From contig CAMYKK010000013.1 in assembly GCA_947258975.1 (NCBI GenBank), positions 73,496 through 126,831 on the forward strand: DNA of 53,336 bases. Reading direction: 5' to 3'. Under the pieces are notes generated by a model. It had not been told where the DNA came from. It saw only the letters and a list, made by a program, of their open reading frames with translations, and searched no databases. Of this stretch, positions 19,161 through 53,256 are shown piece by piece (position 1 is the stretch's first letter; every line of letters starts with the position of its first letter). This DNA comes from an uncultured Gammaproteobacteria bacterium. GTDB taxonomy: Bacteria > Pseudomonadota > Gammaproteobacteria > Arenicellales > JAANXG01. The position numbers and the translations under genes are program-made.

Positions 19161-19399
19161 CGAGTTTTCTCCGTTCGGGTTGAATCTAGCGCAGGTCCCA
19201 GCCGCCAACCCCGGTGTATAATAAGCGAGGCACCCGGGCGGCCGTGTCGATCTGCGTGCGAATTTAAGAAATGACCGCGCTTTATAGCACAGGCCCTTTT
19301 TTCGGGCAATCGCGGTGCCTGGCCGCCCTCTAGTGCCTGCGCCTGGCTTGAAAAATCGTGTAGCATGGGCGCCCCGATACCCATATCGCGCGCTAGTTT

Positions 19400-30273: not shown

Positions 30274-30507
30274 CTAGTTATGCCCGTCGGTGTAGGGTAT
30301 CAACGCAAGATAACGGGCCCGCTTCACCGCACGCGCGAGTTGCCGTTGATATCGGGCATGGGTCCCGGTATTCCGGCTGGGAATGATGCGCCCGGTCTCG
30401 GTAATGTAATTCTTGAGCGTCGCGAGATCTTTATAATCGATTTCATCGACATCCAGCGCCGTGAACCGGCAGTATTTGCGCCGTCGATAGGGTCTACTAG
30501 CCATCAT
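30274..30507 (-). CDS. rpsR: 30S ribosomal protein S18
   Basis: 77 residues. [20 protein letters not shown] and [22 protein letters not shown] are typical S18. It pairs with S6 on the 30S platform. The start overlaps the rpsF stop by 4 bp, so the two partners are translated together. Confidence 0.98.
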
Positions 30508-31175
30508 TGTTTGTCTCCCTGCTCTGTGTCGGAAATGGGTTCATCGAGTATCTGTGTCGCGTCGGCCGGCAACGCAGCAGTTTGCGGCTCCCCGGGTTCC
30601 TCGGAGTCGGCGGAAGCATCGGCAGACTCGGTCGTTTCGGCAGACGCACCGTCCGCGGTAGGTTCATCGTCCGCAACCTTGATTTCCACTTCGTCATCTC
30701 GAGCCTCATCTTCTCGAGCCTCGTTTTCTCGTGCCTCGTTTTCTCGAGCCTCGTTTTCTCGTGCCTCGTTTTCTCGAGCTTCGTTTTCTCGAGCTTCGTT
30801 TTCTCGTGCCTCGTTTTCTCGAGCCTGGGCTGCAACCTCACGCTCTCTTTCCTCCTCCACCTCTTTCATCATTGGCGACGGTTCGCTGACCGCTTGATCA
30901 CGCCGCAACACCAGGGAGCGCAGCACCGCGTCGTTGAAGCGAAACGCGTTTTCGATTTCGTCCAAGGCCGGTTTTTCACACTCGACATTCATCAACACGT
31001 AATGGGCCTTATGAACCTTGTTTATGGGAAAAGTGAGTTGCCGCCGACCCCAGTCCTCAAGACGGTGGATTGCTCCGCCGTCTTTTTCCAGCATTGCCCG
31101 GTAGCGATCCACCATTGCGGGGACCTGCTCGCTCTGGTCCGGGTGGACCAGAAATACGATCTCGTAGTGACGCAT
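30504..31175 (-). CDS. rpsF: 30S ribosomal protein S6 with repeat-containing tail
   Basis: The S6 fold covers about residues 1-105 ([53 protein letters not shown]). The total of 223 residues is about 90 longer than usual. The extra part contains seven ENEAR pentads and one EDEAR, encoded by 15-bp tandem repeats, and then an acidic tail. E. coli S6 also has an acidic end that receives glutamates, so a charged tail is not foreign to the family, but this one is much longer. The SD GAGGAG precedes the ATG. Confidence 0.96.
30706..30825 (-). repeat. 15-bp tandem repeat inside rpsF (8 units)
   Basis: Eight head-to-tail 15-bp units of the form TCGTTTTCTCGNGCC on the plus strand, with two alternating variants (GAGCC or GTGCC) and a TCATCT variant at the left end. 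They encode ENEAR pentads, so gain or loss of a unit keeps the frame. Confidence 0.95.
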
Positions 31176-31342: not shown

Positions 31343-32722
31343 TTACAGCCTTGTATTAGATTTTTTCTGGTTCGGCAATAAACTTCCTTGCACGGTCGCC
31401 GCGCTGTGGGCCAGCAATAACCCCAGCAACACATTCACCGGAAAAAACTCGATGACGTTGGTCGTCAGACTGGCGATACCGATCACTACATACACCGGCC
31501 TGGCCCGGGTATCACTCCATGCGCCGTGGGCCAACAGCGCGTAAAAGCCCACGCAACCCACCACGCCGATCTGGCTGACCAGACATTGCGCGGTCGAGTT
31601 GCTGCCACCGCGCAGCGCCGACAGCGGGACCTCGGCGCCATGTTCCATTGCGTAGCGGAACCAATGCACCGCCACGTTCGTGCCGATTCCCAGTCCTTCG
31701 CCAAACAGTACCGTCATCGGTCCCGTCGCCTCGCTGAAGTACCGTTGCATCCACAGGACGCGTCCAAACATGGACGCGAACACGTCCGGGCGCGCGGTCA
31801 ACCAGGGTAGAGCAAGCAACATCATCAGGCCGATCACGACGAACACCGGCAGCCGCCACCGGCACCGGCACCAGCGTCCACCTTCCGGGGCATATGCGTA
31901 ACCAATCACCAATAGAAACAACAACAGCGCCGATGCCGACCCCGCTGCGATGACCACGATACCGCCCGCGACCACCGTGACGAAACGCATGCGCGGCGGC
32001 GGGTTTCCGAAACACACATAGAACAGCAGCGCGATCACGCAAAACAGGCCGAGCGTCGTTGGTTGCAGGAAGGCGCCGGTCACTCGATCTCCAGGAACCG
32101 GCAACAAGCCCGTACCGGAGAAGATATCCAATCCCCGTGTGATCTCCGGTATCGTCAGAATAAGCTGAAGATATACTAGTCCGATTAGATAGTTAGACAA
32201 TAATGCTAAGCTTCTGGTTGAGGCAAGGTGGGTGACACTGAGGGGGACCGCAACAAACGCGAACAAACGCAGACCCGGCACCAGCAGCAGACCGCCGAAT
32301 CGCAGCCACGACACCAGCGCGGCGAGCACAACCGACGCCGTAAATCCGAGAAGCAGGGGCTGCCTCGACACCACCGGCCGGTAACCCGCGCGCCAACCCA
32401 CCCATAGCGAAACACCAACGATGAGTACCACCAACCCATACTTGACGAGCTTGGTGATGGTTTGGGCGCCGCTGACCGCGTACAGCCGGCGCATCTCCCG
32501 CCGATGGAAACTCTGTACCTCCGCATAGGCCGGATCGAGCCGTGACGAGACCCGGAAATTGGACTTTTGGACACGGTGGGCATGGTAGGCGTCGGGCTCG
32601 AGCCAGCCGGTCCGCTTCAACCAGAACGTCGCGCCATTGGCCACCACCGCAACGCACAACAACACCCCGATGACGTGAATCCATCCACAGCGTCCGCCTA
32701 GATGCCGGCGTTCCCGCATCAA
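31343..32722 (-). CDS. O-antigen ligase/polymerase-like polytopic membrane protein in lasso cassette
   Basis: 459 residues with about ten to eleven hydrophobic helices. The region SGTGLLPVPGDRVTGAFLQPTTLG, followed by helices and a large extracytoplasmic loop (about residues 310-385), resembles the Wzy_C/WaaL family, which moves undecaprenyl-linked glycans. Its ATG overlaps the stop of the upstream HPr-kinase-like gene (ATGA), so it is in the lasso operon. Its role there is unknown to me. It could be a tailoring glycosyl transferase, an exporter substitute (no ABC transporter is near), or a passenger. Family assignment is moderate, function open. Confidence 0.65.
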   Translation of the reverse strand: MMRERRHLGGRCGWIHVIGVLLCVAVVANGATFWLKRTGWLEPDAYHAHRVQKSNFRVSSRLDPAYAEVQSFHRREMRRLYAVSGAQTITKLVKYGLVVLIVGVSLWVGWRAGYRPVVSRQPLLLGFTASVVLAALVSWLRFGGLLLVPGLRLFAFVAVPLSVTHLASTRSLALLSNYLIGLVYLQLILTIPEITRGLDIFSGTGLLPVPGDRVTGAFLQPTTLGLFCVIALLFYVCFGNPPPRMRFVTVVAGGIVVIAAGSASALLLFLLVIGYAYAPEGGRWCRCRWRLPVFVVIGLMMLLALPWLTARPDVFASMFGRVLWMQRYFSEATGPMTVLFGEGLGIGTNVAVHWFRYAMEHGAEVPLSALRGGSNSTAQCLVSQIGVVGCVGFYALLAHGAWSDTRARPVYVVIGIASLTTNVIEFFPVNVLLGLLLAHSAATVQGSLLPNQKKSNTRL

Positions 32723-33633
32723 TCGCGCTCAATGATCCGTTGCAGCGTGTCCAAGGATTGCTGGCGATGCGGATACTCCAAGGTCGTGATTTGAGTCGAA
32801 TCCGCGACTTGCGCGCAAAACTCAAGATGTCGTTCCAGTACAGAATCCGGAAATAGGCGCGCTGACAGCGTGTGCCGCGCCACTGCCAACGCGGCAGCAC
32901 CCGCAGACAGCACATCGGTCACCGCAGGCCTATCGGACCCGGATTTGAGCACAAATATTTTTTTTACGGCGATCGGCGCAAAGTCCGCATACTGTTGCTC
33001 AGCCGGGAGGCTACATTGTGGAAACGGCGTTAGGCTGTGCAGTATCCGGTTCATGGCAACGGCGACGATATCGTCGGCGAGACGCTGCATGGCGGCGCGC
33101 GGCGCCGACAACCAAGCGGCAATGGTGGATTTCCCGAGACCCGATTCACCGAGGAACAATATCGCGGCACCCTGATGAATTACGGCGCTACCATGCAGGC
33201 ACCATCGCCGCTGCAACGCCAACGCCAACGCCAACACCGGACCCAGCAACAGGTCCGTCACGCCTGAACTCCGTGCGGGTGGGTCCAGCAACTCAATCCA
33301 CTTTCCGTCATCGCGCACGAAAAACCGGGACGCGCCCATACGGACAACATAACCGTCCGCAACTCGTCTGCACTGGACAACCTGGCGGGCACCGCCGATC
33401 CAACCGTCCGACTGCCGCTCAGTGGAGTATTGTGTATCATCCACCGCACGTCCGGGCATAACTTGCGACGACAAACGCGTCGTGTGTACGCGCTGCTCGC
33501 GAAACGCCTCGAGCGCGGTCACGCGCGCATCGATCCAGAAGCGGCACCCGGCGACGCGGTACGCGCGGACCAGCATGTCAGGATTTTCCTGGGAAGTCGT
33601 TAAGCGCACGAAAATGGCGGGTTTGGACCCCAC
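32719..33633 (-). CDS. HPr-kinase-like protein of lasso cassette 1
   Basis: 304 residues. The C-terminal half has CLHGSAVIHQGAAILFLGESGLGKSTIAAWL in two adjoining pieces: HGSAV, then the P-loop GESGLGKST near residue 178-186, and ADDIV as Walker B. This is the HprK/P fold found beside lasso peptide precursors, where studied relatives phosphorylate the C-terminal residue of the precursor. The N-terminal half is variable. It follows the precursor by 16 bp and overlaps the membrane protein gene by 4 bp. Confidence 0.75.
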   Translation of the reverse strand: MGSKPAIFVRLTTSQENPDMLVRAYRVAGCRFWIDARVTALEAFREQRVHTTRLSSQVMPGRAVDDTQYSTERQSDGWIGGARQVVQCRRVADGYVVRMGASRFFVRDDGKWIELLDPPARSSGVTDLLLGPVLALALALQRRWCLHGSAVIHQGAAILFLGESGLGKSTIAAWLSAPRAAMQRLADDIVAVAMNRILHSLTPFPQCSLPAEQQYADFAPIAVKKIFVLKSGSDRPAVTDVLSAGAAALAVARHTLSARLFPDSVLERHLEFCAQVADSTQITTLEYPHRQQSLDTLQRIIERD

Positions 33634-33649
33634 GGACCGTAACTGTACG

Positions 33650-33835
33650 CTAGTCCTTAAATGACGTTGGATTCCCGCTCTCGAGATTCCCTGGCGAGGG
33701 GCCGAGGGTGATGTCGCGGACGTCGCCGTACACGGCTAAAGTCGGACGCTGGTAGCGTTTCTTCGTCCTTACACGCCGATCATCGCCAGTTGACGTGTTT
33801 ACTACGCGGTTTTCTTTGTGTCGGCCGTGTTTCAC
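33650..33835 (-). CDS. Lasso peptide precursor 1
   Basis: Small gene, 61 residues from the GTG at 33835 (an ATG at 33871 in the same frame would give 73 and overlap the cyclase gene). The leader has KRYQRPTLAVYGDVRDITL: the YxxP motif bound by B1 proteins and Thr at the penultimate leader position. The predicted core is GPSPGNLESGNPTSFKD, 17 residues. Gly1 to Glu8 would close an eight-residue ring, with Phe15 and Lys16 as candidate plugs. It lies between cyclase 1 and kinase 1 on the same strand. Neither start has a strong ribosome-binding site. Confidence 0.82.
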   Translation of the reverse strand: MKHGRHKENRVVNTSTGDDRRVRTKKRYQRPTLAVYGDVRDITLGPSPGNLESGNPTSFKD

Positions 33836-33851
33836 AGTTCTGTCTGAATGT

Positions 33852-35705
33852 TTATGGCAGATTGTACGCATCGCGAAACGCGGCGCCGGGCGCAGTATAC
33901 CTGCTCCACATTTCAAGCGAAATACACAGCCAACGAACATATCCACTCACGCCGTCGCATTCGCCGTTTACGCGCAACCAATCCCGATCCACGTATTGGG
34001 ACCAAATATTATCAGGGGAATGCAACCATTGCTGCACGCGGGTTAACTCTTTTTCACTCAGACCAAGCGTATACAACGATTGAAATGAAGTCTTGTTCGG
34101 CCGCGTCAGGATCGCCGCCGGTACTATGCCTCGCAGTGCGCGGCGCACGATGGGCCGTTTGGTGCCGCGGGAATACAATTGCCGGGTGGGAATCTGCAGC
34201 ATGAAATCCACCAGCCGACGGTCGCGGAACGGATAGCGCAATTCAACGCCATAACGCCCGGCAAAGAAGCGCTCGATGTATCCCAGCCCGGTAACGAGTT
34301 CCAACACCCGAAAGTATTGATTCGGTCGCCGAGCGCGCGTGGACTCGTGGGGCCAGGCACCGCCGTTATCGAGATGTTCGCGCGCGAAGGGCGTCAACCA
34401 TTCGGGTACCGGCCGTGGCCGCAATTTTTGATACGCGCCATGGGTAAACAGGCCGCGTAACAATCCTTGTGTTATAAACGTCCGCCACCCATGTTCCTTG
34501 CGGTACCAGATACTATCCCCGATCGCGGTCGCGAGGCGGCGCTCGACCAGCAGGTCGCCGAGCCAGCGCTCGGTGCCGCTGTATAGATGATCTCCCATCA
34601 GTCCACTCAGCAATACCCGCACACCGTGTCGCTCGAGCTCCCGGTATAGATTCTCATGTAAACGCCGGTACGGATTTTGAAACGGTGCAAAGGGGTGTAT
34701 GGGCCAAGTTTCAAAATCGCTCAACGGCCATGCCGCATCGCAATTGACCTGCAGTGGTATTAAGCGATGGGCGTGATACATCTGCTGCAGGTACTCACGC
34801 TCATCGCATTCGGTGCGCCGGTCGAACACCCACGAGGCCGCCGTCAACCGGCGGCCTTGCGTCGTCAAGTGGCGCGCCGCCACCGCGGCAATCGGCGCGG
34901 AATCGAGTCCGCCGCTCATGGCGACCGCCGGCTCGCCCGTGGCCCGCAAACGGCATGCGACACTCTGGCTCAATAACTCGAGAAAATGCTCGGCGTAATC
35001 CTCGTCCTTGCGGTAACGAAGACGGGTGTCGGGCGCAAATGGCCAATATGATTCGTTGGCCACGGTGTCCATCCCTACACGCATCACCTGCGCCGGTAGC
35101 AGCATCTTGACCCCGCGAAACAGCGTCGCCGCCGCAGTCTGCTCTGTATAGGCGAAGAACATCGCCATCGCGCCATGATCGGGCGCAACGGCAAGGCCGG
35201 GATGCGCAAGCACACCGCCCGGTTCCGAGGCCGCAACGAGCGTGCGGTCCGACAGCCAATAAAATAGCTTACGCCCGCCCATGGGATCGCAACCCAGCAC
35301 CACTTCGCGCCGTGAATGGTCGTATACCGCCAATGCAAACGGCCCCAGCAAGCGCCGCACACAAGCGCTGCCCCAGCGAGCGTAGGCGTGCAGAACCAGG
35401 CGCGCATCCGACAATGCCGAAAGCCGCGGCAGGCGCCCGGGTAGTTGCTGATACACATCTTGGCGATTATCCAACCGCCCGTCCCACAACAAAATGAGCG
35501 TCGCCTCGGGATGCGATATGGGTTGACGTTCCCCGATATCCTCGGGCGTCGTATGACAGTGCCGATGACCCAACACTGCGGATCCTTTGGTCACGACACG
35601 CTTGCCGTCAGGACCGAGATACTTCATCACGGAAAGCATCTTCTCAACGAGGCGCGGCGACGCCGGGCGTTCGTCGCGGTAGAACAACAACGCAAGTCCA
35701 CTCAC
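33852..35705 (-). CDS. Lasso cyclase 1 (asparagine synthetase B homologue)
   Basis: 617 residues from a GTG (35705). Two domains: a class II glutaminase-like N-terminal part (LGPDGKRVV, WDGRLDN) and a synthetase part with the ATP-binding SGGLDSAPIAAVA near residue 262-275. True asparagine synthetases begin Met-Cys; here it is MSGL, so the glutamine-splitting Cys is absent. This is expected for lasso cyclases, which activate the Asp or Glu side chain with ATP and need no ammonia. Immediately followed by precursor 1. Confidence 0.85.
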   Translation of the reverse strand: MSGLALLFYRDERPASPRLVEKMLSVMKYLGPDGKRVVTKGSAVLGHRHCHTTPEDIGERQPISHPEATLILLWDGRLDNRQDVYQQLPGRLPRLSALSDARLVLHAYARWGSACVRRLLGPFALAVYDHSRREVVLGCDPMGGRKLFYWLSDRTLVAASEPGGVLAHPGLAVAPDHGAMAMFFAYTEQTAAATLFRGVKMLLPAQVMRVGMDTVANESYWPFAPDTRLRYRKDEDYAEHFLELLSQSVACRLRATGEPAVAMSGGLDSAPIAAVAARHLTTQGRRLTAASWVFDRRTECDEREYLQQMYHAHRLIPLQVNCDAAWPLSDFETWPIHPFAPFQNPYRRLHENLYRELERHGVRVLLSGLMGDHLYSGTERWLGDLLVERRLATAIGDSIWYRKEHGWRTFITQGLLRGLFTHGAYQKLRPRPVPEWLTPFAREHLDNGGAWPHESTRARRPNQYFRVLELVTGLGYIERFFAGRYGVELRYPFRDRRLVDFMLQIPTRQLYSRGTKRPIVRRALRGIVPAAILTRPNKTSFQSLYTLGLSEKELTRVQQWLHSPDNIWSQYVDRDWLRVNGECDGVSGYVRWLCISLEMWSRYTAPGAAFRDAYNLP

Positions 35706-35739
35706 AACTTCGGGTACCTAAACTTTTCTAAATGTTTGT

Positions 35740-35770
35740 TGTCAATAATCAGCACCGGCATATTGCCGGT
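35740..35770 (-). promoter_or_regulatory. Possible promoter and operator of lasso cassette 1
   Basis: On the minus strand TTGACA lies at 35740-35745, about 35 bp ahead of the cyclase GTG, with a poor -10 (TTTAGG after 17 bp). Eight bases further upstream is a 7-bp inverted repeat, ACCGGCA (35754-35760) TAT TGCCGGT (35764-35770), well placed for a regulator. Confidence 0.4.
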
Positions 35771-35803
35771 AGTGGTTGATACACTTCGTTGAGGTGCACT
35801 GAG

Positions 35804-35864
35804 ATGCGTGACTTAGTCACACAAACTCAAAAATTTAGTTATCAGATTGCACCATGCGTGACTT
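35804..35864. repeat. Direct repeat ATGCGTGACTT, 50 bp apart
   Basis: ATGCGTGACTT occurs at 35804-35814 and again at 35854-35864 in the divergent region between cassette 1 and the giant secreted protein. The first copy is part of a GTGAC-TTA-GTCAC inverted repeat. The spacing and position suggest binding sites, but no regulator is identified. Confidence 0.4.
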
Positions 35865-35992
35865 TTGCGTTATCTTTCTGAGAACACGAAGAGTACAATT
35901 GTACAGAACGGGCCGATGACCGGCACGTTAAAGCCGACTAACCAGCATCTGAGGTAACTGGGTGGTCGGCGACATGGATGACTTAAGTGGGG

Positions 35993-36082
35993 GTTGCTGG
36001 TAAAAGCCAAACCTGTCGTCAGACGGGTACGGAAAGCCGCGGATCTTACGTACCATCAAGACTGCCGGGCCGCCAAGGCAAC
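35993..36082 (+). ncRNA. Cyclic-di-GMP-I (GEMM) riboswitch aptamer
   Basis: About 90 nt. Outer stem GUUGCU (35993-35998) with GGCAAC (36077-36082). Then AAAAGCCAAACC leading into a 7-bp hairpin ACCUGUC-GUCA-GACGGGU, the conserved ACGGAAAGCC, a variable arm with UCUU/AAGA, and UGCCGGGCCGCC. This is the GEMM layout: AAACC hairpin, ACGCAAAGCC, then GCCGGG-UUGCC. Two changes from consensus fall at positions that pair with each other (G-C replaced by C-G in GCCAAACC and ACGGAAAGCC), which supports a real structure; the ligand-contacting G just before is retained. It lies about 90 nt ahead of the giant protein start, so c-di-GMP probably controls that gene. The switch mechanism is not obvious, since no T-run terminator follows. 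Confidence 0.75.
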
Positions 36083-36170
36083 AGGGCTGGTTGATCTGGT
36101 TTGTTCGCGTTATTGGACCAGAACAACTAGTCATTTCGAGTCTTATCACTACATGTGGGGTGTACGTAAG

Positions 36171-39100
36171 ATGAAATTCCTAGCACAGATTTGCCCTAAT
36201 CTGGGTAAGCCCAATAATAATTTATCGGCAACGGTTCGCGCCAGTCGATTGCGCTATCTGCTGGTGGCGCTCGCGGCGTGGACGGCCTTGAGCGTTCCAA
36301 GCGGCGCTATGGCCCAGCTGGTATCCAATTGCCTGCCGAGCTGCGATAAGGCGGACGGGCGGTTTCTTTCCATACCGGGCTCCGGCTTATTCACCTTGAC
36401 CGCGCAAGACATCAACATTCGCATCGCGGTTCCCAGTGATATCGGCCAGTTCCAGGTCGAGATCTTTGACGGCGACACCAATGTGACCGGCGGTCCCGGC
36501 TCGCACTGGGATTTGAACTTTTCGCCCGCACAAGATTTGAATTTTCAGATTTTTTACGGCGACGGCTCCGGAGATCCGATCAATGATCCGGCGTGGCCGT
36601 TGACCGGCAACGCCATGCCGGATAACGATTGGTTCACGGCCCCGGCGGTCAGCACCGAAGCACGCGCCCAGGATACGGACGGCCTTTACCGCTATCGCTT
36701 GCGGATCAGGTTGGCGGATCCCGAGAGCAGTTCGATCTCCAACTTCAAATTGCGCATTACGCCGGACTCGGTCTTGGCCACCATCGGTGAGCCGTTCGGA
36801 TTCCAAGCCCCGATCTACAGTTTTGCCGACGCCGAGACCATCTATCCCGACTGGCCGAATAACGTGGGCGATCCGAATCACGAGTATCCCTTTGGATATG
36901 GAGACACGTTGACTCCCGCGGAGCCCGACTATTCTCCCAACACCACTTATGACGGCACCTTCACCTTCTTTGCCCGCAACGGCGTGCCGGGCATTGGTGG
37001 CGTCGATCCCGATGAGTTCGTGGCCTGGGATGGGGATCTGGACCACGGCTCGTTTAACGGCACCATGCTCGATACCGATGATCCCGACACCCCCAACGAC
37101 CTGCTCCCGGTGTGGGCGGTTCCCGACACCGTGTTCGAGAAAGCACAGCCGGTCGCGGCAGACAACCCGCCAGACGACGTTGATTCGCCGGAAGCCCTAG
37201 TCTTCACCAAACGCGCCATCGTGCGCACACCCTCGGTGGCGTACGAGGTATTTCCGGCCGACGATACCGGATTGCCCGGCGGAACATCTTTCGCCAATGA
37301 CAACCCCTCCGGAAACCAGGAATGGGAACAGTTTCGTTTAACCGAGGCCAACGAGGACGCCTCCACCGCGGACTATTGGGGCATTGACGACCTCAAGCCG
37401 GGAATCTACAAAGTGGTGCTACGCGGTATGGATCTGCAGAACTTCAATGCGTGGCGGGTACCAGCGATCTGCACCGACACCAACGGCAACCCCTGTCCCG
37501 AGCCCCAATCGGTGAGTATCGGCGACCGCGTGTGGCAGGATTTGGACGGCGACATGCAGGGTGGCGGCCTCGGCGCCGCGGACGATGGCGAGCCCGGCAT
37601 CCCCGGTGTACTCATGAACGTGTTCAGCCGGGGCAACCTCATTAATCAGACGATCACCGACACCGACGGCCGTTATCTGTTCCGCGTGACCGAGGGCGAC
37701 CAGGGGGCCGCCACGGCATATACGGTTCAAGTCGCACCCGAAAACTTCAGCGACCTCGGCCCCCAGGGCTCCATCGGATGTTGCGTGTATCTCGATGCCA
37801 ACGGTAATGGGACCCGCGATCCGGACGAAGCCGGGCTCGGGAATATCAGGGTCGTCCTTCGCGACACCAGTCTTAATGCGCTCGACGTGGCACTCACCGA
37901 CGCCAACGGATTGTACCGCTTCAACAACCTTCCGCCCGGCGATTATGTTGTCGACGTGGTAGACGCAACACTGCCCCCGGGTTTGGCCATCTCTGGCGGT
38001 ACCGATCCCAGTCCGCTGCTCACCATTACCGGCACTGAAAGTCTCGGCGCCACGTTCGGATACCGGAACGCTGCCGGCGCCATCATCGGCAACCTGATCT
38101 GGACCGACGTGGACAACAACGGCATGCGCGACGCGGACGAGCCGGGATTCAACGGCGTTACCGTGGCGTTGATCGATTTGGGCGACGACAACGCCATTGG
38201 CGGCATGAACGGCAACGCCGACACGGTGGTGGCGACCGCGGACACCATCGGTGGTCGCTACCTGTTCACCAATGTTCCCGACGGCACTTACATAGTGGAA
38301 ATCACGGATCTACGTGCCCGCCTGAGCGGTTACGACTGGGTGTTCGGGCCCAATGGCACCGTATTGCCGACCGACCGCACCGAGCCGTTCGCGGTGGTCG
38401 CGGGTGATACCTTGCTCGAAAAGGACTTTGGGTATCTGCGCGACGGCCTGCCGACGATTACGGATTCCGTGTGGTTGGACGTCGATCGCGACGGCGTGCG
38501 TGACGCGGATGAAATAGGCTTTCCGAACGTGACCGTGAGTCTCAATGAAAGTCAGGGCATCTTCGGCGACGACATTTCGGTGGCGGTAGCCACCACCGAC
38601 GCGAATGGCGTGTTCCGTTTCGCGGGCGTACCGGACGGGGATTATCGATTGGTGTTAACGGGGGTCAACGGTGTGTTGGCGGGTCTGCTGCCAACTACCC
38701 CAGCCGGTTTGACGCAACTTCCCGTGACGGTTTCGGGGCTCGACATCACTGGTAATCACTTCGGATTCAATACTCAAGGACAACTGGCCAACGCCCTCAA
38801 CACGACGCCCGGCGGCGCGCCGCCGCAGGAGATTGCGGATTCGGTACAAGACCAGAATGTACTCACCTATGACTTCGGGTATCAATTGAACCCCGTGATC
38901 ATCGGCGATGATGTGTTCGAAGATCTGGATCAGAGCGGCCTGCCACCAGGGGCCGGGGAACCGGGGATCCCCGCGGTGTGCGTGAATCTGCGCAACGCCG
39001 ACGGGACTTCGATCGGCCGAACCGTCACCGATGGCAACGGTAAATACGAGTTTCCGGTGCTCCCGGGCACCTATACCATCGAGGTGTGTCCCGAGAGCCT

Positions 39101-40997: not shown

Positions 40998-41036
40998 TTG
41001 CTGGCGGTTTCCTTAGGTTCACACCCCACTGAACCT

Positions 41037-41066
41037 CCCCCCGGGACCATCCCGGGGGGCTTTTTG
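41037..41066 (+). terminator. Rho-independent terminator after the giant gene
   Basis: Perfect 10-bp stem CCCCCCGGGA (41037-41046), loop CCA, TCCCGGGGGG (41050-41059), followed by C and a TTTTT run. It lies 40 bp after the stop codon. Confidence 0.88.
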
Positions 41067-41076
41067 TTGTGGAAGT

Positions 41077-41122
41077 AAAAAAAGGGGTCAGACCCCCAGG
41101 CGGGGGTCTGACCCCTTTTTTT
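41077..41122. terminator. Long perfect inverted repeat with A/T flanks (bidirectional terminator shape)
   Basis: Seven A, then GGGGTCAGACCCCC (41084-41097), a 4-base AGGC loop, GGGGGTCTGACCCC (41102-41115), then seven T: 21 paired bases in all. It separates the giant gene from lasso cassette 2. The motif GGGGTCTGACCCC recurs twice at 53231-53256, so it is also a repeat family. Confidence 0.7.
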
Positions 41123-41127
41123 CTTCT

Positions 41128-41156
41128 ATCTCAACATAATCCACGCATGTTGAGAT
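41128..41156 (+). promoter_or_regulatory. 10-bp perfect inverted repeat upstream of cassette 2
   Basis: ATCTCAACAT (41128-41137), 9-base spacer, ATGTTGAGAT (41147-41156). About 90 bp ahead of the cyclase 2 start. The symmetry and spacing are those of a dimeric regulator site; there is no T-run to suggest a terminator. Confidence 0.5.
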
Positions 41157-41245
41157 GGGCAGGTCAAAACATTATGGCTAGCCCGTTGTTGCCGATACGA
41201 TGACCGTGTCCTAGACTCCCGGGACCCAACTTTCGATCTGACACC

Positions 41246-43144
41246 GTGGCCGGCATCGCAGGCATTGTACATTTCGACGGGTCCCCGGTTGACCAGGATT
41301 CCCTGCGCGCGGTGGCCGAGAGCGCCACGCATCGCGGACCGGATGGCATCTTCTATCAACACACCGCCGACTGCGCCTTTGCGCATCTGGCGCTGCGCGT
41401 CCTTCCCGCCATTAACAACACCTCACAACCGCTGCGGCACCAACAAGATGGCCGCGTCTGGTTGATTACCGCGGACGCACGCATTGATAATCGCACGGAG
41501 TTGCGGTCCTCCCTGGGTATCGAGGACGAACGCATCGAGGACGAAGATTGCAGGCTGATTCTTTTCGCCTTCCTGAAATGGCGGGCCGCATGCGTGCAAC
41601 ATCTGATCGGTGATTTTGCCTTTGCCATTTGGGACACCAAAAACCAGACCTTGTTTTGCGCCCGCGATGCCCTGGGCCTGAAATCCCTGCATTACGCGAG
41701 AATATCGCACGGCCTATGCGTGGCCTCGGAGGCGCAGCAAATCTTGCGGCATGCGGAGGTCTCGCCGCGTTTGAACGAAGGCATGGCCGGCGAGTACCTC
41801 GCGGGCGCCTGCGAGGATCTGCAGGAGACGTTTTTCGACGGTATCTATAGCCTTGCAGCCGGCCACACACTGGTAGCCGGCCGTCATGGAATACAGGTGC
41901 AGCGTTATTGGTATCCCGAGAACCTGCCGCTCATTCGCTACGCGGATTCAAGCTCATACGCCGAACATTTTCGGGAATTGTTTACCAGCGCAGTGACCGA
42001 TCGGATACGCGGTCTTGACCGTGCGGCGATAACTGTCAGCGGCGGGCTCGACTCGGGTTCGATCGCTGCGGTGGCACAGCAATGTGGTGCCGGTACCAAG
42101 ATACGCGGTTTCACCCAGACTTATGACCAGCTGGCGGAATGCGATGAACGCGAGTTCAGCCACCACTTGTCCAGCGAACTGGGTTTGGCCATCGAGCCTG
42201 TGTCCACGGAACGGTTTTGGTTGTTCGCAGACGAAGAGGCCTTTCGTCCCCGGCTGGAATCGCCGTTTCAGATCTTCACGAGTTGCGAGCGGCATATCTA
42301 CCAACGATGCCAAGCATTGGGGATCAAGGTATTACTCACCGGCCATGGTGGCGATAGCCTGTTGACCGGCAGCGGACTGGCATATTTTGATCGCCTCCTG
42401 CGCGGCGATCCGCGCGTGTTTCGGGATATGCGTGCCCACGCCGCGCTCCACCACTATTCGATGACGACGCTACTGAACCGCTATCTTCTGCGTCCGCTCA
42501 TCCCCAATGCGATCAAGGCATCCCTACGGGCGCGATCCCCATGGCAGGATCCGGCTTTCCCCGCATGGATGGAGTCCGAGTTTGCCGCTCGCATCGGGTT
42601 GAGCCACCGTCTTAGAACGCACCCACGCTTACCGCGTTTAACCGGCCGCGGCCGGCGGGCACGCATCACCGAGATGCGGCACCTCGGGAGCATCGCCAGA
42701 GCTGTCTATTACCTCGACCGAACTACCTCAGAGTTTGGTCTCGAATGCCGGCACCCGTTCCTGGATCGGCGCCTGGTCGAGTACGCGCTTGCCCTGCCTG
42801 ACGAGCAGTTATTCAAAGCAGGTCAAACCAAATTGGTCTTGCGTGGCGCGTTGCGCGGAATATTACCCGAAGCAATTCGTAACCGCCCGGACAAGACCTA
42901 TTCGACTGCGTTCATCGACTTCAGCCTTCGAAAAATCTCGGCGCACCGGATCTCGGCGTTGTTTGCCGATCCTGTCTGTGCCGCACTGGGTTTCGTCAAC
43001 AGCGCCGAGCTGTGCCGGGCGTGGGAGGGTTTCTGTAGCGGCAGCATACCAATAAGAGGCGCAATGTTCTGGTTCCCATTGACTCTGGAGGCCTGGTTGC
43101 GCCGCTATCACCGGGAATTGAACATTACCGAGCGGATTCGATAG
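41246..43144 (+). CDS. Lasso cyclase 2 (asparagine synthetase B homologue)
   Basis: 632 residues from a GTG. The glutaminase-like domain (ATHRGPDGIFYQ, TADARIDNR) begins MAGIAG, with Ala where asparagine synthetase needs Cys2. The synthetase domain has VSGGLDSGSIAAVAQQ near residue 263-278, and later LECRHPFLDRRLVEYALALP. Same architecture as cyclase 1 but clearly diverged from it. Precursor 2 follows after 70 bp on the same strand. Confidence 0.87.
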   Translation: MAGIAGIVHFDGSPVDQDSLRAVAESATHRGPDGIFYQHTADCAFAHLALRVLPAINNTSQPLRHQQDGRVWLITADARIDNRTELRSSLGIEDERIEDEDCRLILFAFLKWRAACVQHLIGDFAFAIWDTKNQTLFCARDALGLKSLHYARISHGLCVASEAQQILRHAEVSPRLNEGMAGEYLAGACEDLQETFFDGIYSLAAGHTLVAGRHGIQVQRYWYPENLPLIRYADSSSYAEHFRELFTSAVTDRIRGLDRAAITVSGGLDSGSIAAVAQQCGAGTKIRGFTQTYDQLAECDEREFSHHLSSELGLAIEPVSTERFWLFADEEAFRPRLESPFQIFTSCERHIYQRCQALGIKVLLTGHGGDSLLTGSGLAYFDRLLRGDPRVFRDMRAHAALHHYSMTTLLNRYLLRPLIPNAIKASLRARSPWQDPAFPAWMESEFAARIGLSHRLRTHPRLPRLTGRGRRARITEMRHLGSIARAVYYLDRTTSEFGLECRHPFLDRRLVEYALALPDEQLFKAGQTKLVLRGALRGILPEAIRNRPDKTYSTAFIDFSLRKISAHRISALFADPVCAALGFVNSAELCRAWEGFCSGSIPIRGAMFWFPLTLEAWLRRYHRELNITERIR

Positions 43145-43214
43145 GGCAATCCGATGATGATCTAAGTGGCGGTTTTGGTTACAATATCGGGTCTTCGATC
43201 TGGAGGGTCTAGCT

Positions 43215-43379
43215 TTGAAACCGAAACGCCATGGCGGGGAACACAGGCGGATGCGATCAGGCAAGGATAAGAAAAAATATTCTCGACCGGCGTTGATCCG
43301 CTGGGGTCGCGTCAAGGACATCACCCAAGGCCCTGTGGGTGGGACAGCGGATGGACTGACAGGCACGGGCGGCACGTGA
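43215..43379 (+). CDS. Lasso peptide precursor 2
   Basis: 54 residues from a TTG at 43215, with GGAGGG (43202-43207) seven bases upstream, which decides the start. The leader contains KKYSRPALIRWGRVKDITQ: YxxP, hydrophobic positions and a penultimate Thr, close to precursor 1. The predicted core is GPVGGTADGLTGTGGT, 16 residues; Gly1 and Asp8 would form the ring. The tail GLTGTGGT has no bulky side chain to act as a plug, which is odd for a lasso fold. The last residue is Thr, a possible site for the neighbouring kinase. Confidence 0.85.
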   Translation: MKPKRHGGEHRRMRSGKDKKKYSRPALIRWGRVKDITQGPVGGTADGLTGTGGT

Positions 43380-43515
43380 ACCTTCGATTCTGCGGCGCGT
43401 TCGTTCTTCATTGTTCCGCCTGGACTGCGTTGTCAGTCACACTTTATGATCCAGCGCTGACAACATCGCACCGCTAGCGGCACCGTACCGCCGCTTTTGT
43501 CCATCTTGGTTCTAG

Positions 43516-44487
43516 GTGACAAGAGGATTGCACAAATATTCTGTATACGGCTTTATTTGGGAATCGGATCTGTGCCTTAGCTCCTGTTTGATCCCGGCTC
43601 GAGGCGGGACCGACGTCGAACTTCGGCGCGTCCACAAGCTGTCGGAACCTCCGACAAACTGCCTTTTTTCCAGCCCCCTGATCCGCAACGGTTCACCGCT
43701 GCTGAAAACATACGGAACGAGTGAGGAAATCCTGCTACGTTACCCGGGGCTCGTGGACATTCTGGTAACGCCGCGGGAAATTCAGTATGTCCCGGAGACG
43801 AATAGCGACATGGCGTTCATCGAGGCCCAATGCCTGGGCCCGGCATCGGCACTGTGGTTGGAATTAAATAACACGCTCGCGTTGCATACGTCGGCGGTGG
43901 TTGTGGACGACGCAGCGATTATGTTGGTGGAACACAGCGGTAGTGGGAAATCAACGCTCGCGGCAACTTTTCTGCGCCATCAACATGCGTTGCTGACCGA
44001 CGATATCCTTCCCTTGAACGTCACGCCGCACGCGGTGTGGGGTCAACCGGGATACCCGCAAATACGGTTATTAGCGGACGTCGCGAGACAATTCATCTCC
44101 GGCGCCGACACCCTTCCGAGCACACACCCGAAGATTGGCAAAAAAATGATCCCCGTTGGCGTGTCGGGTTTCGGGACATTTCGCGACAGACCGGTGACAA
44201 TTTCTTCCGTCTATGTTCTCGATCGGGTGGCCGACGACACGGCACGCATCGCTATTCAAGACCTGACACCAACGGAAGGGTTGCATGCCTTGATCCGCGG
44301 CTCTTCCGGCGCCAATACCTTACAGGCCCTGGGACTGCAACCGAGCCGCCTGCCGCGCCTTGCACAAATAGTGGAAACGCTGCGTGTGCGCCGTCTCACT
44401 TATCCTGATGGGCTGCATCATCTCAACGACGTCTACGATGCCATTGTGAACGACGTTGACACAAGACATACATCGAATTGGCACTAA
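43516..44487 (+). CDS. HPr-kinase-like protein of lasso cassette 2
   Basis: 323 residues from a GTG. P-loop VEHSGSGKSTLAATFL near residue 137-152, preceded by LALHTSAVVVDDAAI, and LLTDDILPL as Walker B. Same family as the 32719-33633 protein. Characterised relatives in lasso clusters modify the precursor C terminus by phosphorylation; whether this one does so is inference. Eight bases precede the B1 gene. Confidence 0.77.
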   Translation: MTRGLHKYSVYGFIWESDLCLSSCLIPARGGTDVELRRVHKLSEPPTNCLFSSPLIRNGSPLLKTYGTSEEILLRYPGLVDILVTPREIQYVPETNSDMAFIEAQCLGPASALWLELNNTLALHTSAVVVDDAAIMLVEHSGSGKSTLAATFLRHQHALLTDDILPLNVTPHAVWGQPGYPQIRLLADVARQFISGADTLPSTHPKIGKKMIPVGVSGFGTFRDRPVTISSVYVLDRVADDTARIAIQDLTPTEGLHALIRGSSGANTLQALGLQPSRLPRLAQIVETLRVRRLTYPDGLHHLNDVYDAIVNDVDTRHTSNWH

Positions 44488-44494
44488 ACGGGCG

Positions 44495-44767
44495 ATGCCA
44501 CAGATCGTATTCAAACTCTCCGCGGATATACTGTTGCAGGAAGTCGCCAACGAGATGGTGATCCTCAATCTCGCTGACGGCCAGTATTACGGCTTGAACG
44601 AGATCGGTGCGCGCATTGTTCAGCTCATGTCACGTGGCGAAGATATTTCCTCCATCACCCAAAATTTACTGGGCGAGTTCGATGTCGAGCAATCCGTTCT
44701 CGAACGAGATATCCAGGACCTGATTGAGAAGTTGCAGCAACATGCGCTTATCGAAATTGCTGGTTAG
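44495..44767 (+). CDS. PqqD-like leader-binding protein (lasso B1)
   Basis: 90 residues from the ATG at 44495 (MPQIVFKLSADILLQEVANE). The winged-helix RRE fold of PqqD proteins is visible in VILNLADGQYYGLNEIGARI then helices ending in LIEKLQQHALIEI. B1 binds the YxxP part of the leader and delivers the precursor to B2. It is the only B1 in the window, so it probably serves both precursors. Its end overlaps B2 by 26 bp. Confidence 0.87.
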   Translation: MPQIVFKLSADILLQEVANEMVILNLADGQYYGLNEIGARIVQLMSRGEDISSITQNLLGEFDVEQSVLERDIQDLIEKLQQHALIEIAG

Positions 44768-45230
44768 GAAATTGCGTACCGCCGCGACACTGCCGGTCGG
44801 GCGATTCCGGTGTATTGCGCACGCGTGGTACACGTTAACGGTGGTGCAGTGTGCGCTCGACGTTTTACCGTACCGGTACTGGGAAAAACCCCTCAACAGC
44901 GCCATGAACTCTGACCCCGACGGGGACGGGTCAGCTGGCGCAGCCTCGCATCAGGCATGTAATGAAATCGCTCAGGATATTGCGATTGCGGCACGCAACC
45001 ACTTTTTGAAAGTGAACTGCCTGGGCAGGAGCTTAGCACTGCACAGATTATGCCGTCGCGCGGGTTTTTCCACTCAGATCGCCATCGGAATCCGCAAAAA
45101 CCGTGGCAATATTGAGGGACATGCCTGGTTGGAGGCTGGCGGAGTGGTGGTGAACGACACCTTAGAGTGCATCAGCGCGTTTACCAAGCTGGACCGCGTG
45201 CCGTCGCTTCGACCTGCGTTCGTGACTTAG
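44742..45230 (+). CDS. Transglutaminase-like leader peptidase (lasso B2)
   Basis: 162 residues from the internal ATG at 44742 (MRLSKLLVRKLRTAATLPVG). The catalytic triad is Cys93 (VNCLGRSLALHRLCRRAG), His127 (IEGHAWLE) and Asp139 (VVNDTLE), as in lasso B2 proteins that cut the leader after the residue following the conserved Thr. Overlaps B1 upstream and, by 4 bp, the convergent gene downstream. Only copy in the window. Confidence 0.88.
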   Translation: MRLSKLLVRKLRTAATLPVGRFRCIAHAWYTLTVVQCALDVLPYRYWEKPLNSAMNSDPDGDGSAGAASHQACNEIAQDIAIAARNHFLKVNCLGRSLALHRLCRRAGFSTQIAIGIRKNRGNIEGHAWLEAGGVVVNDTLECISAFTKLDRVPSLRPAFVT

Positions 45231-46096
45231 ACCCCAGGCCGATGGGCCGGTAACGGCAATTTACGGTAGGCCTGGTAACCCGCCATTATGTCGCGCGCTA
45301 TTCTTTCTTTGGACACCCGTTGCAGAATCAGATCCGTACTGTTGGTGGCCGGTTCCAGGTACTTAATCGTTACCGGAATACCCTGTGCCAAATCGAGCAC
45401 AAATCGTGGGATCAAGCGTGCCCCAATCGCCGTCGTGGTGGCGATTTCCTTCCCAACACGATGCATCTGCTCGAGCACCGACCAATCATCAGCATCGATA
45501 TTGAGATCCGTATAGTTCGTAGTGCAGAGCTCCCTGAGCTTCCTTTGCTCCAAGAGCACGTCCGTTCGCGTGCAAGAATAGGCTCCGCTACGATCCGGTT
45601 TTCCGGTAGCGCGGTACTGCGCGAGCCGGGGACGGGCCCCATACAAACGCTGTTCCAAGGTATCAGCAAAACTTCTGATCTTTTCATGATCCTTCGGCGG
45701 CGATTTTCCTAATCTTTCGTCCCGATCCTGTTGTAACCGTTGCCGGCCTGCTTCTGTCTCAGAAAAAGTGGCAGGCGACACTTCAAAGACCCCTTTGTGG
45801 GAACGCTCCAGCACATGGAACGTGTCGTCAGCGCTGTTGAACCAGACGGAATACTCGCGTCCAGACCGCCCCGTGCCCGATAACAATACGCGACCGTGCG
45901 CAACAAAGATATCGAGATTACCGCGCAACGGCGGGGCATCCAGCGGTTGCGTGGCGATTGGCCCGCCAGCCTGGGACGGGGCCGAACGCTTCGCGATGTC
46001 GGAAGGCAAATAACGGATGAACAGATCCGCATCCGCGTGTGGCGCAAACCCGAAACAAGTCACCACCAACAAGACCTGTATCGTATTTACCGACAT
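45227..46096 (-). CDS. Exported protein of unknown function
   Basis: 289 residues with a signal peptide (MSVNTIQVLLVVTCFGFAPHADA). I do not recognise the family with confidence. The first part, VLLSGTGRSGREYSVWFNSADDTFHVLER, is beta-rich; the middle is charged (GRQRLQQDRDERLGK); two Cys at SCTRTD and LCTTNY could form a disulfide. Convergent with B2, overlapping it by 4 bp, and 108 bp downstream of the GspC-like gene, with which it may form an operon. Confidence 0.65.
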   Translation of the reverse strand: MSVNTIQVLLVVTCFGFAPHADADLFIRYLPSDIAKRSAPSQAGGPIATQPLDAPPLRGNLDIFVAHGRVLLSGTGRSGREYSVWFNSADDTFHVLERSHKGVFEVSPATFSETEAGRQRLQQDRDERLGKSPPKDHEKIRSFADTLEQRLYGARPRLAQYRATGKPDRSGAYSCTRTDVLLEQRKLRELCTTNYTDLNIDADDWSVLEQMHRVGKEIATTTAIGARLIPRFVLDLAQGIPVTIKYLEPATNSTDLILQRVSKERIARDIMAGYQAYRKLPLPAHRPGV

Positions 46097-46204
46097 ATGC
46101 GATTCCCCACCTGATTTACAGCCAAGAGAACATACCCAAATCGCGAAACATACTAACGCGTCACGAACTCCTTGTGCGAACGGAATGATATCAGGGAGTG
46201 TAGA

Positions 46205-46891
46205 CTAAAAAGGTATACGCGGCATATCGGGACGGCGGTTGCCGTCGGGGTTCGGTTTCAGCAACTGCCGCCGCCGCGCTTGCCGTGCCTGGCGTTCCGC
46301 GTCTTTACGCCGATCGCCCTGGGCCTGTTGCTCGGTCTCCCGAGGTTGGGGGCTGCGGCGCTCTCGCGCCGGGTGGCGGCCAGGAGACGCCGGCGAAGCC
46401 GGCGAAGATAGCGAAGATGGCGCCGATTCGAGATCCGGCCGTTCCAGGCTCAGCTTTTCCAGACGTTTGCCGCGCTCGATGATCACGCGATCCGTTTCGA
46501 TCGCGTACAACTTGGCATCGGTGCCATCGATGCGGTCACCGATGGAATAACTGCGATCAGGCACGGCATCCGAGGCAATCACAGCGCGTGCATTATCGTC
46601 AAGGTCGCTGGCCATGACTCCCAACAGCGTCAGTCGCAACCGGGTTTCCGGGGCCTGTTGCACCACGGGTTGCTGTTTCGGGGCGACGCCGAACAAGTGA
46701 GCGGCGATTATCTGATTCAAGCGATAGTCCTCAGCGGGTGTTTCGGCCGCCGGTTTCGCCGCGACGGGCGCCGCATCACCGGGGGACGACAATGCCGGGA
46801 TGAATCGCTGGCCGACAGCGTACAGCACCCAAACCAGAATCATGATCGCAGCCAACAACGTGGCAGTCGGTAAGTAATTTCTATGGGTCAT
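46205..46891 (-). CDS. GspC-like protein (type II secretion C homology region)
   Basis: 228 residues. One N-terminal membrane helix (LLAAIMILVWVLYAVGQ), a Pro/Ala linker, and at residues about 58-150 the GspC homology region: IIAAHLFGVAP, TRLRLTLLGVMAS, YSIGDRIDGTDAKLYAIETDRVIIER. GspC joins the inner-membrane platform to the GspD secretin. Unlike full GspC there is no PDZ domain; a Ser/Pro and Arg/Gln-rich tail follows. No other type II secretion gene is visible here. Confidence 0.75.
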   Translation of the reverse strand: MTHRNYLPTATLLAAIMILVWVLYAVGQRFIPALSSPGDAAPVAAKPAAETPAEDYRLNQIIAAHLFGVAPKQQPVVQQAPETRLRLTLLGVMASDLDDNARAVIASDAVPDRSYSIGDRIDGTDAKLYAIETDRVIIERGKRLEKLSLERPDLESAPSSLSSPASPASPGRHPARERRSPQPRETEQQAQGDRRKDAERQARQARRRQLLKPNPDGNRRPDMPRIPF

Positions 46892-47035
46892 TGTATGATA
46901 GGCAGTCGTTCCACCCTAACGGTCGCGACGCACACCCGTGCTCACATCGGTAACATAAAGAAATATATCAGAATTTCGTGACATTGTTTGGTTTTCAACG
47001 GCCATTTATGGCCCTGCCTGGCCCCGCGTCCTGGT

Positions 47036-48175
47036 ATGCGCCCTGATACCGATGACGAACTTCGCGCCGCGTGCGCGCGGGCGCTCATGGACGACCCCGC
47101 ACAGCTGGTCGCGTGTGTGGGCACTACGTCAGCAAAACGACTAACAGATTTTTTCGTTAAACACGGCATCCACGGTTTGCTTTATGACAAGTTATCGCGC
47201 TCGCGCGTGGCCTCCAATCACTCGGAGCTGTACACAGCAGTTAGACGGTTGGCCCATTCAGAAGCCAGCCGAAGCTTGCTTCAAGAGCAAGAGTTGAAAC
47301 GCATCGATGCGGCGTTACAGCGCGACGAAATACGTTGTTTGGCACTCAAGGGAACACCCCTTGCCTATACAATCTATCCATCCCCTGCCCTGCGACCGCG
47401 CGCGGATATCGACTTGTTGTTCGCCGCCACCGACATTGCCGCCGCCCGTGAGTTACTGGCCGGGCTCGGCTACCGGTGTCAGCCGCTCGTGACGCCCTTG
47501 GAACGCTCGGTATTCTTGACCACCCAGTTCACGTGCATCCGCCAGGTTCGCGGGCAACCAAACCGTGTCGTCGATGCCCACTGGCGCATCAGCAACTCAT
47601 TATTGTTTGCGCGTATGTTGCGCTTTGAGGAGTTATATCGCGCCGCCGCCCCGCTCCACCCGCCAACGGCGGTAATCAAGTTCCCTAATCCGGCGCACAG
47701 CCTGCTGATCGCGTGCTTACATCGTGTCACCGAGCCGCACAGGGACCGGTTGATCTGGATCTACGATATTCATCTGCTGGTGCAACAATCCGCCGCCAAA
47801 CAGCTGGCGCACGCGGCCGAAACTGCCGTGCACCGCGGTATGGCGTGCGTATTGTTGGAGGGCCTGGTGATGGCCCGCGACGGATTCGGCACCAGTGTCG
47901 ATCCGGCCTTGCTGCACATGCTTATGGAGGCCACATCAAACCATGCGGAACCCGCCGCGCGCCTGTTGCACGCCGAGAGTATGCTGGCACGCCGGTTCGC
48001 CGAACTACGCGCCGCGACGGGTTGGCGTCAGCGCCTGCGCATGCTGTCGGCGAGCCTTTTTCCACCCAAGTCCTATCTTGTTCTGCAGGGCCTGTCGCCC
48101 GGCCGCGCACCGTGGATTTGGTCCTATGTGAAGCGTTTGGTCTGTGCCCTAAGGCCGCAGCGGCGGCGCATCTAA
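47036..48175 (+). CDS. Nucleotidyltransferase-family protein associated with lasso locus
   Basis: About 379 residues from the ATG at 47036 (an ATG at 46988 would add 16). CLALKGTPLAYTIYP followed by PALRPRADIDLLFA near residue 120-133 is the pattern of the NTP_transf_5 family (GTxLxxxxY then R-x-x-x-D-x-D-L). Proteins of this family accompany lasso and other RiPP clusters that also carry HPr-kinase-like genes, so it may tailor the peptide. It is separated from B2 by two minus-strand genes, so membership in the pathway is inference. Confidence 0.72.
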   Translation: MRPDTDDELRAACARALMDDPAQLVACVGTTSAKRLTDFFVKHGIHGLLYDKLSRSRVASNHSELYTAVRRLAHSEASRSLLQEQELKRIDAALQRDEIRCLALKGTPLAYTIYPSPALRPRADIDLLFAATDIAAARELLAGLGYRCQPLVTPLERSVFLTTQFTCIRQVRGQPNRVVDAHWRISNSLLFARMLRFEELYRAAAPLHPPTAVIKFPNPAHSLLIACLHRVTEPHRDRLIWIYDIHLLVQQSAAKQLAHAAETAVHRGMACVLLEGLVMARDGFGTSVDPALLHMLMEATSNHAEPAARLLHAESMLARRFAELRAATGWRQRLRMLSASLFPPKSYLVLQGLSPGRAPWIWSYVKRLVCALRPQRRRI

Positions 48176-53230: not shown

Positions 53231-53256
53231 GGGGTCTGACCCCGGGGTCTGACCCC
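53231..53256. repeat. Doubled palindrome GGGGTCTGACCCC
   Basis: Two perfect tandem copies, 53231-53243 and 53244-53256. The same 13 bp forms part of the long inverted repeat at 41077-41122. Confidence 0.85.

Follow-up and report, generated by a model that had tools for sequence, protein, structure and literature searches.

We analyzed a 53,336-bp stretch (the window), part of contig C13 in the 5.49-Mb draft genome of an uncultured gammaproteobacterium (G000), in which a lasso peptide island occupies about 31–48 kb. Two divergent cassettes, each coding for a lasso macrolactam cyclase (C), a precursor (A), and an HPr-kinase-like protein (K), lie on either side of a gene for a giant secreted-type protein of 1608 amino acids (aa), and one pair of leader-processing genes, B1 and B2, is found at this locus, in the right cassette only. 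A first-pass annotation of the window had predicted the two divergent C-A-K cassettes; all of their genes were located, and both precursors score above the curated cut-off (19 bits) of the lasso leader domain NF033521.

The left cassette is on the minus strand. Its cyclase, C_L (33852–35705), has the lasso cyclase model NF033535 as its best NCBIfam match (338.8 bits, under the cut-off of 525) and scores above the cut-off for Pfam Asn_synthase; it begins with MSGL, contains the SGGLDS motif, and has its own clade in a cyclase tree. The precursor A_L (33650–33835; NF033521, 21.9 bits) likely starts at the GTG at 33835, judging from what its relatives share, and has the leader YQRPTLAVYGDVRDITL and the core GPSPGNLESGNPTSFKD (33653–33703), with a ring predicted between G1 and E8. 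K_L (32719–33633) is a predicted precursor kinase that matches HPr kinase models below cut-off, the Pfam matches falling under the gathering score; the GKS of the Walker A motif, one His, and a DD pair are invariant across 16 K proteins, and a K profile matches PDB 1ko7 (E value, 7e-7).

The right cassette is on the plus strand and begins with C_R (41246–43144), for which NF033535 is again the best NCBIfam match and again under cut-off (388.8 bits). Its N-terminus reads MAGI, and its SGGLDS motif is invariant in eight cyclases of the C_R site; neither C_L nor C_R has Cys2, a residue that lasso cyclases are not known to have. The precursor A_R (43215–43379, with a TTG start; NF033521, 20.7 bits) has the leader YSRPALIRWGRVKDITQ and the core GPVGGTADGLTGTGGT (43329–43376), with a ring predicted between G1 and D8. 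There follow K_R (43516–44487), which likewise matches HPr kinase models below cut-off and conserves the GKS, His, and DD residues; B1 (44495–44767), a PqqD-like leader-binding protein, that is, a ribosomally synthesized and post-translationally modified peptide recognition element (RRE) (PF05402, 61.9 bits; cut-off, 23.4); and B2 (44724–45230), a transglutaminase-like leader peptidase gene that overlaps B1 (NF033537, 65 bits with a cut-off of 33; PF13471, 68.7 bits). No ATP-binding cassette (ABC) exporter was found among the 15 window proteins scanned with Pfam, in agreement with the earlier prediction of its absence, the remaining genome not having been searched for one.

We compared the island with those of its relatives in family f1, which comprises 13 genomes (G000–G012); G001–G005 are of the same genus as the window, G006 is of another genus, and G007 of a third. 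All 13 were searched for C_L homologues and the loci then inspected, and precursors missed by tblastn in some relatives were recovered through their motif or reading frames. Both window precursors have a YxxPxL leader, Thr at position −2, Gly1, and an Asp or Glu at the ring position. The leader and E8 are retained in six of six left precursors read (G001–G006), and D8 in seven of seven right precursors read (G001–G007). Judged by this conservation, both precursors are real genes and not chance frames, because their leaders and ring acids are kept in relatives, as the first-pass annotation had expected of them.

The order of the island is conserved: rpsF, a membrane protein gene, and the K, A, and C genes of the left cassette; the giant, followed by the C, A, K, B1, and B2 genes of the right cassette; and then a protein of the type encoded at 45227–46096, GspC, and a nucleotidyltransferase. 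This order is kept on one contig each in G001, G003, G004, and G005 and over two contigs in G002, and the island is syntenic in G006, where it is interrupted by an additional protein with SdrD_B and peptidase C25. Both cassettes and the repeat protein, whose co-occurrence had been put forward earlier as a check, are thus syntenic in five genomes of the same genus and one of another. In G007 the right cassette, the giant, and the membrane protein are at the site and the left cassette is not; a left-type cassette is on another contig, and the only B2 is flanked by the membrane protein gene and rpsF. The C_L search gave no match at an E value of 1e-40 in G008–G011 and only a left-type match in G012, where GspC, B1, B2, and rpsF are in a row and no giant or right cassette was found. 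The tail motif of the right core, [FL][TS]G[TS]xG[TV], is present in seven family f1 genomes including the window, as well as in a Chloroflexi precursor, and is absent from the right precursor of G003. In the G006 island (L050, 13023–19997), a 2324-aa frame with SdrD_B repeats and peptidase C25, open at least that far, lies between the giant and the left cassette.

The identical gene order of the two cassettes, whose leaders are also similar, had been taken to indicate local duplication of a single C-A-K cassette and subsequent divergence, but the sequences contradict this. C_L and C_R share 29% identity and K_L and K_R only 22%. In a quick tree of 72 of 126 cyclase rows (124 plus two added, with 54 excluded by name because they repeated a gene or were closely related to retained rows), C_L clusters with those from f2, f4, and other families with support of 100, and C_R with those of L057 (Chloroflexi), L058, and L052 with support of 89. 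Constraining C_L and C_R to one clade was rejected by the approximately unbiased (AU) test, both with 14 rows (p = 7e-18) and when the test was repeated with the closest C_R relatives added (p = 3.5e-41). The parallel order needs no duplication because loci found with C_R usually have C followed by K, with K downstream of C on the same strand at 63 of 78. Two-cyclase loci of Opitutia (L060), Pleurocapsa (L067), and Scytonema (L072) resemble the window in having two cyclases per locus, but their tandem cyclases emerge as sisters in the same tree, as expected of duplication, whereas those of the window come from different clades and are divergently arranged. The separate clades, the AU test, the kinase identity, and the usual gene order lead us to reject duplication, under the model and sampling used, as scarcely credible, and we regard the two cassettes as independently descended. 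At another two-cyclase locus, L133, the cyclases are not sisters in the tree. A search by title of the open-licence PubMed Central (PMC) literature gave no work on a two-cyclase lasso locus; one of the papers listed (PMC9096227) contains the phrase "two cyclases".

Shared processing by B1 and B2 had also been proposed, and the gene counts are in keeping with it. Exactly one Transglut_core3 (B2) match is present in each of G001–G007, and each of these genomes has two or more lasso cyclases. Among G000–G007, a second B2 occurs only in the window's genome, on contig C26, where it is fused to a PqqD-like N-terminus in a third lasso locus (L014, 5323–8049) consisting of the fused PqqD-transglutaminase B, a cyclase, and a precursor identified by hand reading, with the leader YDAPEIVRLGAALELTA, a core that begins GNPDEILSDGSPKPNGYKD, and a ring predicted between G1 and D9. 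The B1/B2 pair is therefore single at the island only and not in the genome, so that the earlier claim of a single pair stands for the locus, and the fused B1-B2 rules it out as the host's only pair. The fused protein also invites a different account, in which each precursor has a separate B, the right one matured by its own B1/B2 and the left one by the fused protein of contig C26. This has in its favor that the protein is present in the window's genome; however, no second B2 was found in G001–G007, though G001–G006 retain the left cassette at the site, and by hand count the left leader matches the right leader at nine of 17 positions and the third leader at four of 17.

The strongest evidence for sharing, which also speaks against separate B proteins, comes from G003. 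Its right cassette is divergent from that of the window (identities of 30% for C, 27% for K, 46% for B1, and 36% for B2), and its right cyclase groups in the tree with cyclases from one archaeal member of the Methanospirillaceae and one bacterial member of the Desulfobacterales, while its left cyclase retains 65% identity to that of the window. In the window, G001, G002, G004, G005, and G006, the left and right precursors alike have Thr at −2; in G003 both have Ile. We scanned 85 loci with a pattern permitting T, I, V, A, S, L, or M at −2 (an earlier precursor pattern permitted only Thr or Ser) and accepted 55 plausible precursors from 58 matches, in 48 of the loci; the three others were dropped as apparently spurious, two having an internal stop and one having no lasso-like core. 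Thr is at −2 in 53 of these precursors, and the only two with Ile are the G003 pair. An Ile(−2) lasso system from Bradymonas has been published, and the passages dealing with it describe its B1/B2 as having a new substrate selectivity (PMC10368454). The joint change of both G003 precursors with a divergent B1/B2 makes it most likely, and we consider it well supported, that one B1/B2 serves both precursors, leaving separate B proteins quite improbable.

Several points count against shared processing. The co-variation in G003 is one evolutionary event, which is strong evidence but no independent replication, and the 53 Thr precursors contain many near-identical ones (the 55 include about a dozen Mesorhizobium rows that are nearly the same). 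Nor is G003 alone in having Ile(−2), which is found at standard spacing in a left-type precursor (L211) of G040, outside the 85 loci; in the adjacent G040 cassette, L175, Ile falls at the −2 slot only if the core starts with Gln, and no B2 was found in G040 in the search for B2 genes. In principle, the left precursor could be matured by the host's fused B1-B2, which has a cyclase and precursor of its own, and G001–G007 are draft genomes in which each single-B2 count could miss another B2.

Processing by a B encoded elsewhere, which we predict for the left precursor, does not appear to be special to this island. Family f2 has left-type C-A pairs without K or B in view, and its precursors have a leader with YGDVRD (HGDVRD in one) and a core with E8-S9-G10 at seven of seven loci, all seven also having an adjacent phosphofructokinase gene and two of them a TonB receptor. 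They are like the window's left precursor in the leader type [YH]GDVRD[VI]T and the E8-S9-G10 core, but we found neither a K nor a giant or membrane protein adjacent to them, whereas the left cassette of the window has a K and a membrane protein. The six f2 genomes searched have B2 elsewhere, with 10 matches in all; GspC adjoins B2 by tblastn at four of these (L221, L226, L227, and L235), by eye only at L229, and not at the other five. GspC is a recurrent B2 neighbor in families of the order, as in the window (46205–46891) and at L221, L226, L227, L235, L223, and L058. Titles and abstracts of the open-licence PMC set held nothing on point for lasso peptides and an unlinked B2.

Between the cassettes, the giant protein is encoded at 36171 (ATG)–40997 on the plus strand and has a hydrophobic N-terminal segment, a domain that we call GN, SdrD_B repeats (PF17210, 380 bits), DUF7467, and a Ser/Asp-rich tail; it would be secreted. 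The first-pass annotation was right both about this SdrD_B protein and about a riboswitch ahead of it, a cyclic di-GMP (c-di-GMP)-I-GGC element (RF03167) at 35997–36078 on the plus strand that scores 59.5 bits with a gathering score of 59. GN occupies the first ~450 residues (aligned stretch, 36168–37553, plus strand) and has no Pfam, NCBIfam, PHROG, or PDB match; in our nine-row alignment its identity to the window row is 37–81%, and an AlphaFold prediction from two sequences gave a predicted local distance difference test (pLDDT) score of 30 and was not interpreted. The riboswitch would be expected to place the giant under c-di-GMP control, and it exceeds the gathering score ahead of the giant in five of eight other giant loci (L040, L044, L046, L048, and L050; 62–73 bits), not reaching it in L042, L052, and L053. 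A PilZ-domain protein (L057, 15718–16077) adjoins the Chloroflexi giant described below and is a second possible c-di-GMP link.

GN is rare, and it recurs beside lasso genes. Of 109 genomes of the order, 12 have it, as do two of 369 sampled from the class, one of these two being the window's; it was found in none of 72,556 plasmid records, 375 of which were matched by C_R. Of 16 GN matches in the order, 12 lie beside a lasso cyclase (one each in G000–G005, two in G006, and one each in G007, G035, G036, and contig C267 of G040); in G002 a GN piece adjoins C_L, and the rest of the giant, on another contig, adjoins C_R. In a Chloroflexi metagenome-assembled genome (L057), GN-SdrD_B, A, and K are consecutive genes, B1 and C lie opposite, and the cyclase is 38% identical to C_R. 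A GN search among other lasso genomes, covering 50 of 79 loci, identified the domain in only two of the 50, those with the nearest C_R relatives in that set (L057 and L058); in L058 (G475) GN lies at the end of one contig and the cyclase at the end of another. Further, GN changes together with the right cassette. Its identity to the window's is 54% in G002, 46% in G006, and 40% in G007; in G003 it is 27% over part of the domain, with the SdrD_B and DUF7467 regions at 54% and 75%, and the G003 GN is nearest to those of G334 (~40%) and G040 (~39%). An interaction between peptide and giant is suggested by the recurrent pairing of GN with lasso genes and by its change together with the right cassette in G003. 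The earlier claim of one functional island is accordingly narrowed to the giant and the right cassette, for which these patterns support a co-function that we infer.

Another account is that two ordinary kinase-type clusters happen to share an insertion site, with gspC on one side and the rpsF operon on the other, and that the giant is an unrelated surface protein. The gspC–rpsF site is indeed kept in the family, with B1-B2 between the two even in G012. GN copies without lasso genes exist: of the remaining four matches in the order, those on contigs C2 of G006 and C21 of G041 have no lasso gene within ~20 kb and two are on short G040 contigs, and the class match in G334 has no lasso gene in view and lies at a contig end. 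Two terminator-like hairpins detected in a hairpin scan (41037–41121, plus strand) part the giant from C_R. Hairpins of this kind are in the same gap in the window and four of seven relatives, making five genus members (the window, L040, L042, L044, and L046), and the same scan found none in L049, L050, and L053; C_R is thus probably read separately in those five, which weakens the idea of giant and C_R as a single c-di-GMP-controlled operon. The peptide varies among GN loci, since the GN-linked precursors of family f3, G040, and L058 lack the core tail motif. These observations weigh against a dedicated partnership of peptide and giant. However, GN adjoins lasso cyclases in three families within the order and also in one Chloroflexi genome, where we saw no gspC/rpsF context, and in G003 both GN and the right cassette differ while their neighbors do not. 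We therefore consider a chance sharing of the insertion site unlikely and prefer the partnership.

A palindromic element, GGGGTCAGACCCC, is at 41084–41115, in the hairpin region, and at 53231–53256, with eight matches on both strands and 0.01 expected, which may be a repeat element. In the right cassette of G003, an extra protein (L046, 4975–5658) has a C-terminal PqqD domain (26.5 bits) and an N-terminus that is phosphoribosyltransferase-like by eye.

Downstream of K_L, a polytopic membrane protein with 10 hydrophobic segments (31343–32722, minus strand) is encoded by a gene that overlaps the end of K_L, and the two are probably co-transcribed in the window. The first-pass annotation had named it an O-antigen-ligase-like protein peculiar to the left cassette. 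The protein is there, but profiles do not bear out the label: no O-antigen ligase family was matched by eight homologues in Pfam at E values up to 1, PHROG gave nothing, and PDB gave only a weak match (E value, 0.19). By linkage it goes with the giant and not the left cassette, because in G007 and G040 a homologue adjoins the giant where no left cassette is present.

Downstream of B2 are three further genes. The protein encoded at 45227–46096 (minus strand) has no family match in Pfam, NCBIfam, or PHROG, and its homologues are near lasso cassettes in g1, g2, g3, L058, and family f3; the GspC-like protein (minus strand; PF11356, 93.6 bits) is the sole one found in the genome and a frequent B2 neighbor; and an NTP_transf_5 nucleotidyltransferase (46988–48175, plus strand; PF14907, 124 bits, cut-off 31.2), syntenic in relatives, is a possible tailoring enzyme. 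Next to the island, the window codes for a ribosomal protein S6 (30504–31175) whose C-terminal tail, with ARENE repeats, is long, acidic, and repetitive, and its relatives at the same place have different repetitive tails. A t44 RNA is at 19179–19278 on the minus strand (50.3 bits).

As a whole, we think it probable that the island consists of two independent kinase-type cassettes, one leader-processing pair, and a right peptide partnered with the giant. B1 would bind the YxxPxL leaders of both precursors, and B2 would cleave after residue −1, recognizing Thr at −2; each precursor's own cyclase would then join G1 to E8 (left) or to D8 (right), giving peptides of predicted lasso topology. Each HPr-like kinase, and perhaps the downstream nucleotidyltransferase, may phosphorylate or glycosylate Ser or Thr residues of its own peptide. 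The right peptide and GN would share a history of inheritance, movement, and replacement, most likely because the peptide acts with GN outside the cell, as a bound ligand, a cargo, or an anchored warhead. More tentatively, we speculate that the right peptide and GN form a two-part surface system, in which a c-di-GMP-switched giant binds or carries a dedicated lasso peptide and which is mobile across phyla and exchanged as a unit, and that one B1/B2 acts across the order as a shared maturase for several cassettes, linked or not.

To our knowledge, a partner, or a role in the producer, is known for few lasso peptides, and a recurring, co-exchanged domain beside a peptide gene is a concrete candidate partner. 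The natural swap in which both precursors have another −2 residue suggests how the recognition of leaders may restrict several pathways simultaneously, and genome mining would do well to seek B-less cassettes and B in trans. In the open-licence PMC set we found no paper on lasso peptides with SdrD, nor on lasso peptides with c-di-GMP and a riboswitch; titles and abstracts yielded nothing on point for lasso peptides with O-antigen ligase, with a surface protein or adhesin, or with type II secretion.

The locus is known chemistry in a new, conserved arrangement. In split-B lasso systems, as set out in the relevant passages of two reports, B1 binds the leader, B2 cleaves, C cyclizes, and K phosphorylates, the known phosphate acceptors being a C-terminal Ser or Ser3 (PMC8498205, PMC10368454). 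The window's cores end in Asp and Thr and so have no C-terminal Ser acceptor, and position 3, which varies in relatives, is Ser in the left core and Val in the right. The giant shares SdrD_B repeats with the staphylococcal SdrD adhesin but fails the full-length MSCRAMM SdrD model NF012181 (203.7, cut-off 2500). Paeninodin and pseudomycoidin clusters also have an HPr-like kinase and, in some, a nucleotidyltransferase near B2; the pseudomycoidin nucleotidyltransferase and that of the window are alike in name alone, and the passages on these clusters give a C-terminal Ser as the acceptor and describe a D transporter gene, whereas none was seen in the window (PMC8498205). The bsf-type cluster of Bradymonadales shares the split B1/B2, the HPr-like K, the YxxPxL leader, and the G1–D8 ring, and has Ile(−2) as in G003; in the passages devoted to it, its K phosphorylates core Ser3, and there is one precursor per cluster, with no mention of a giant SdrD_B protein or second cassette (PMC10368454).

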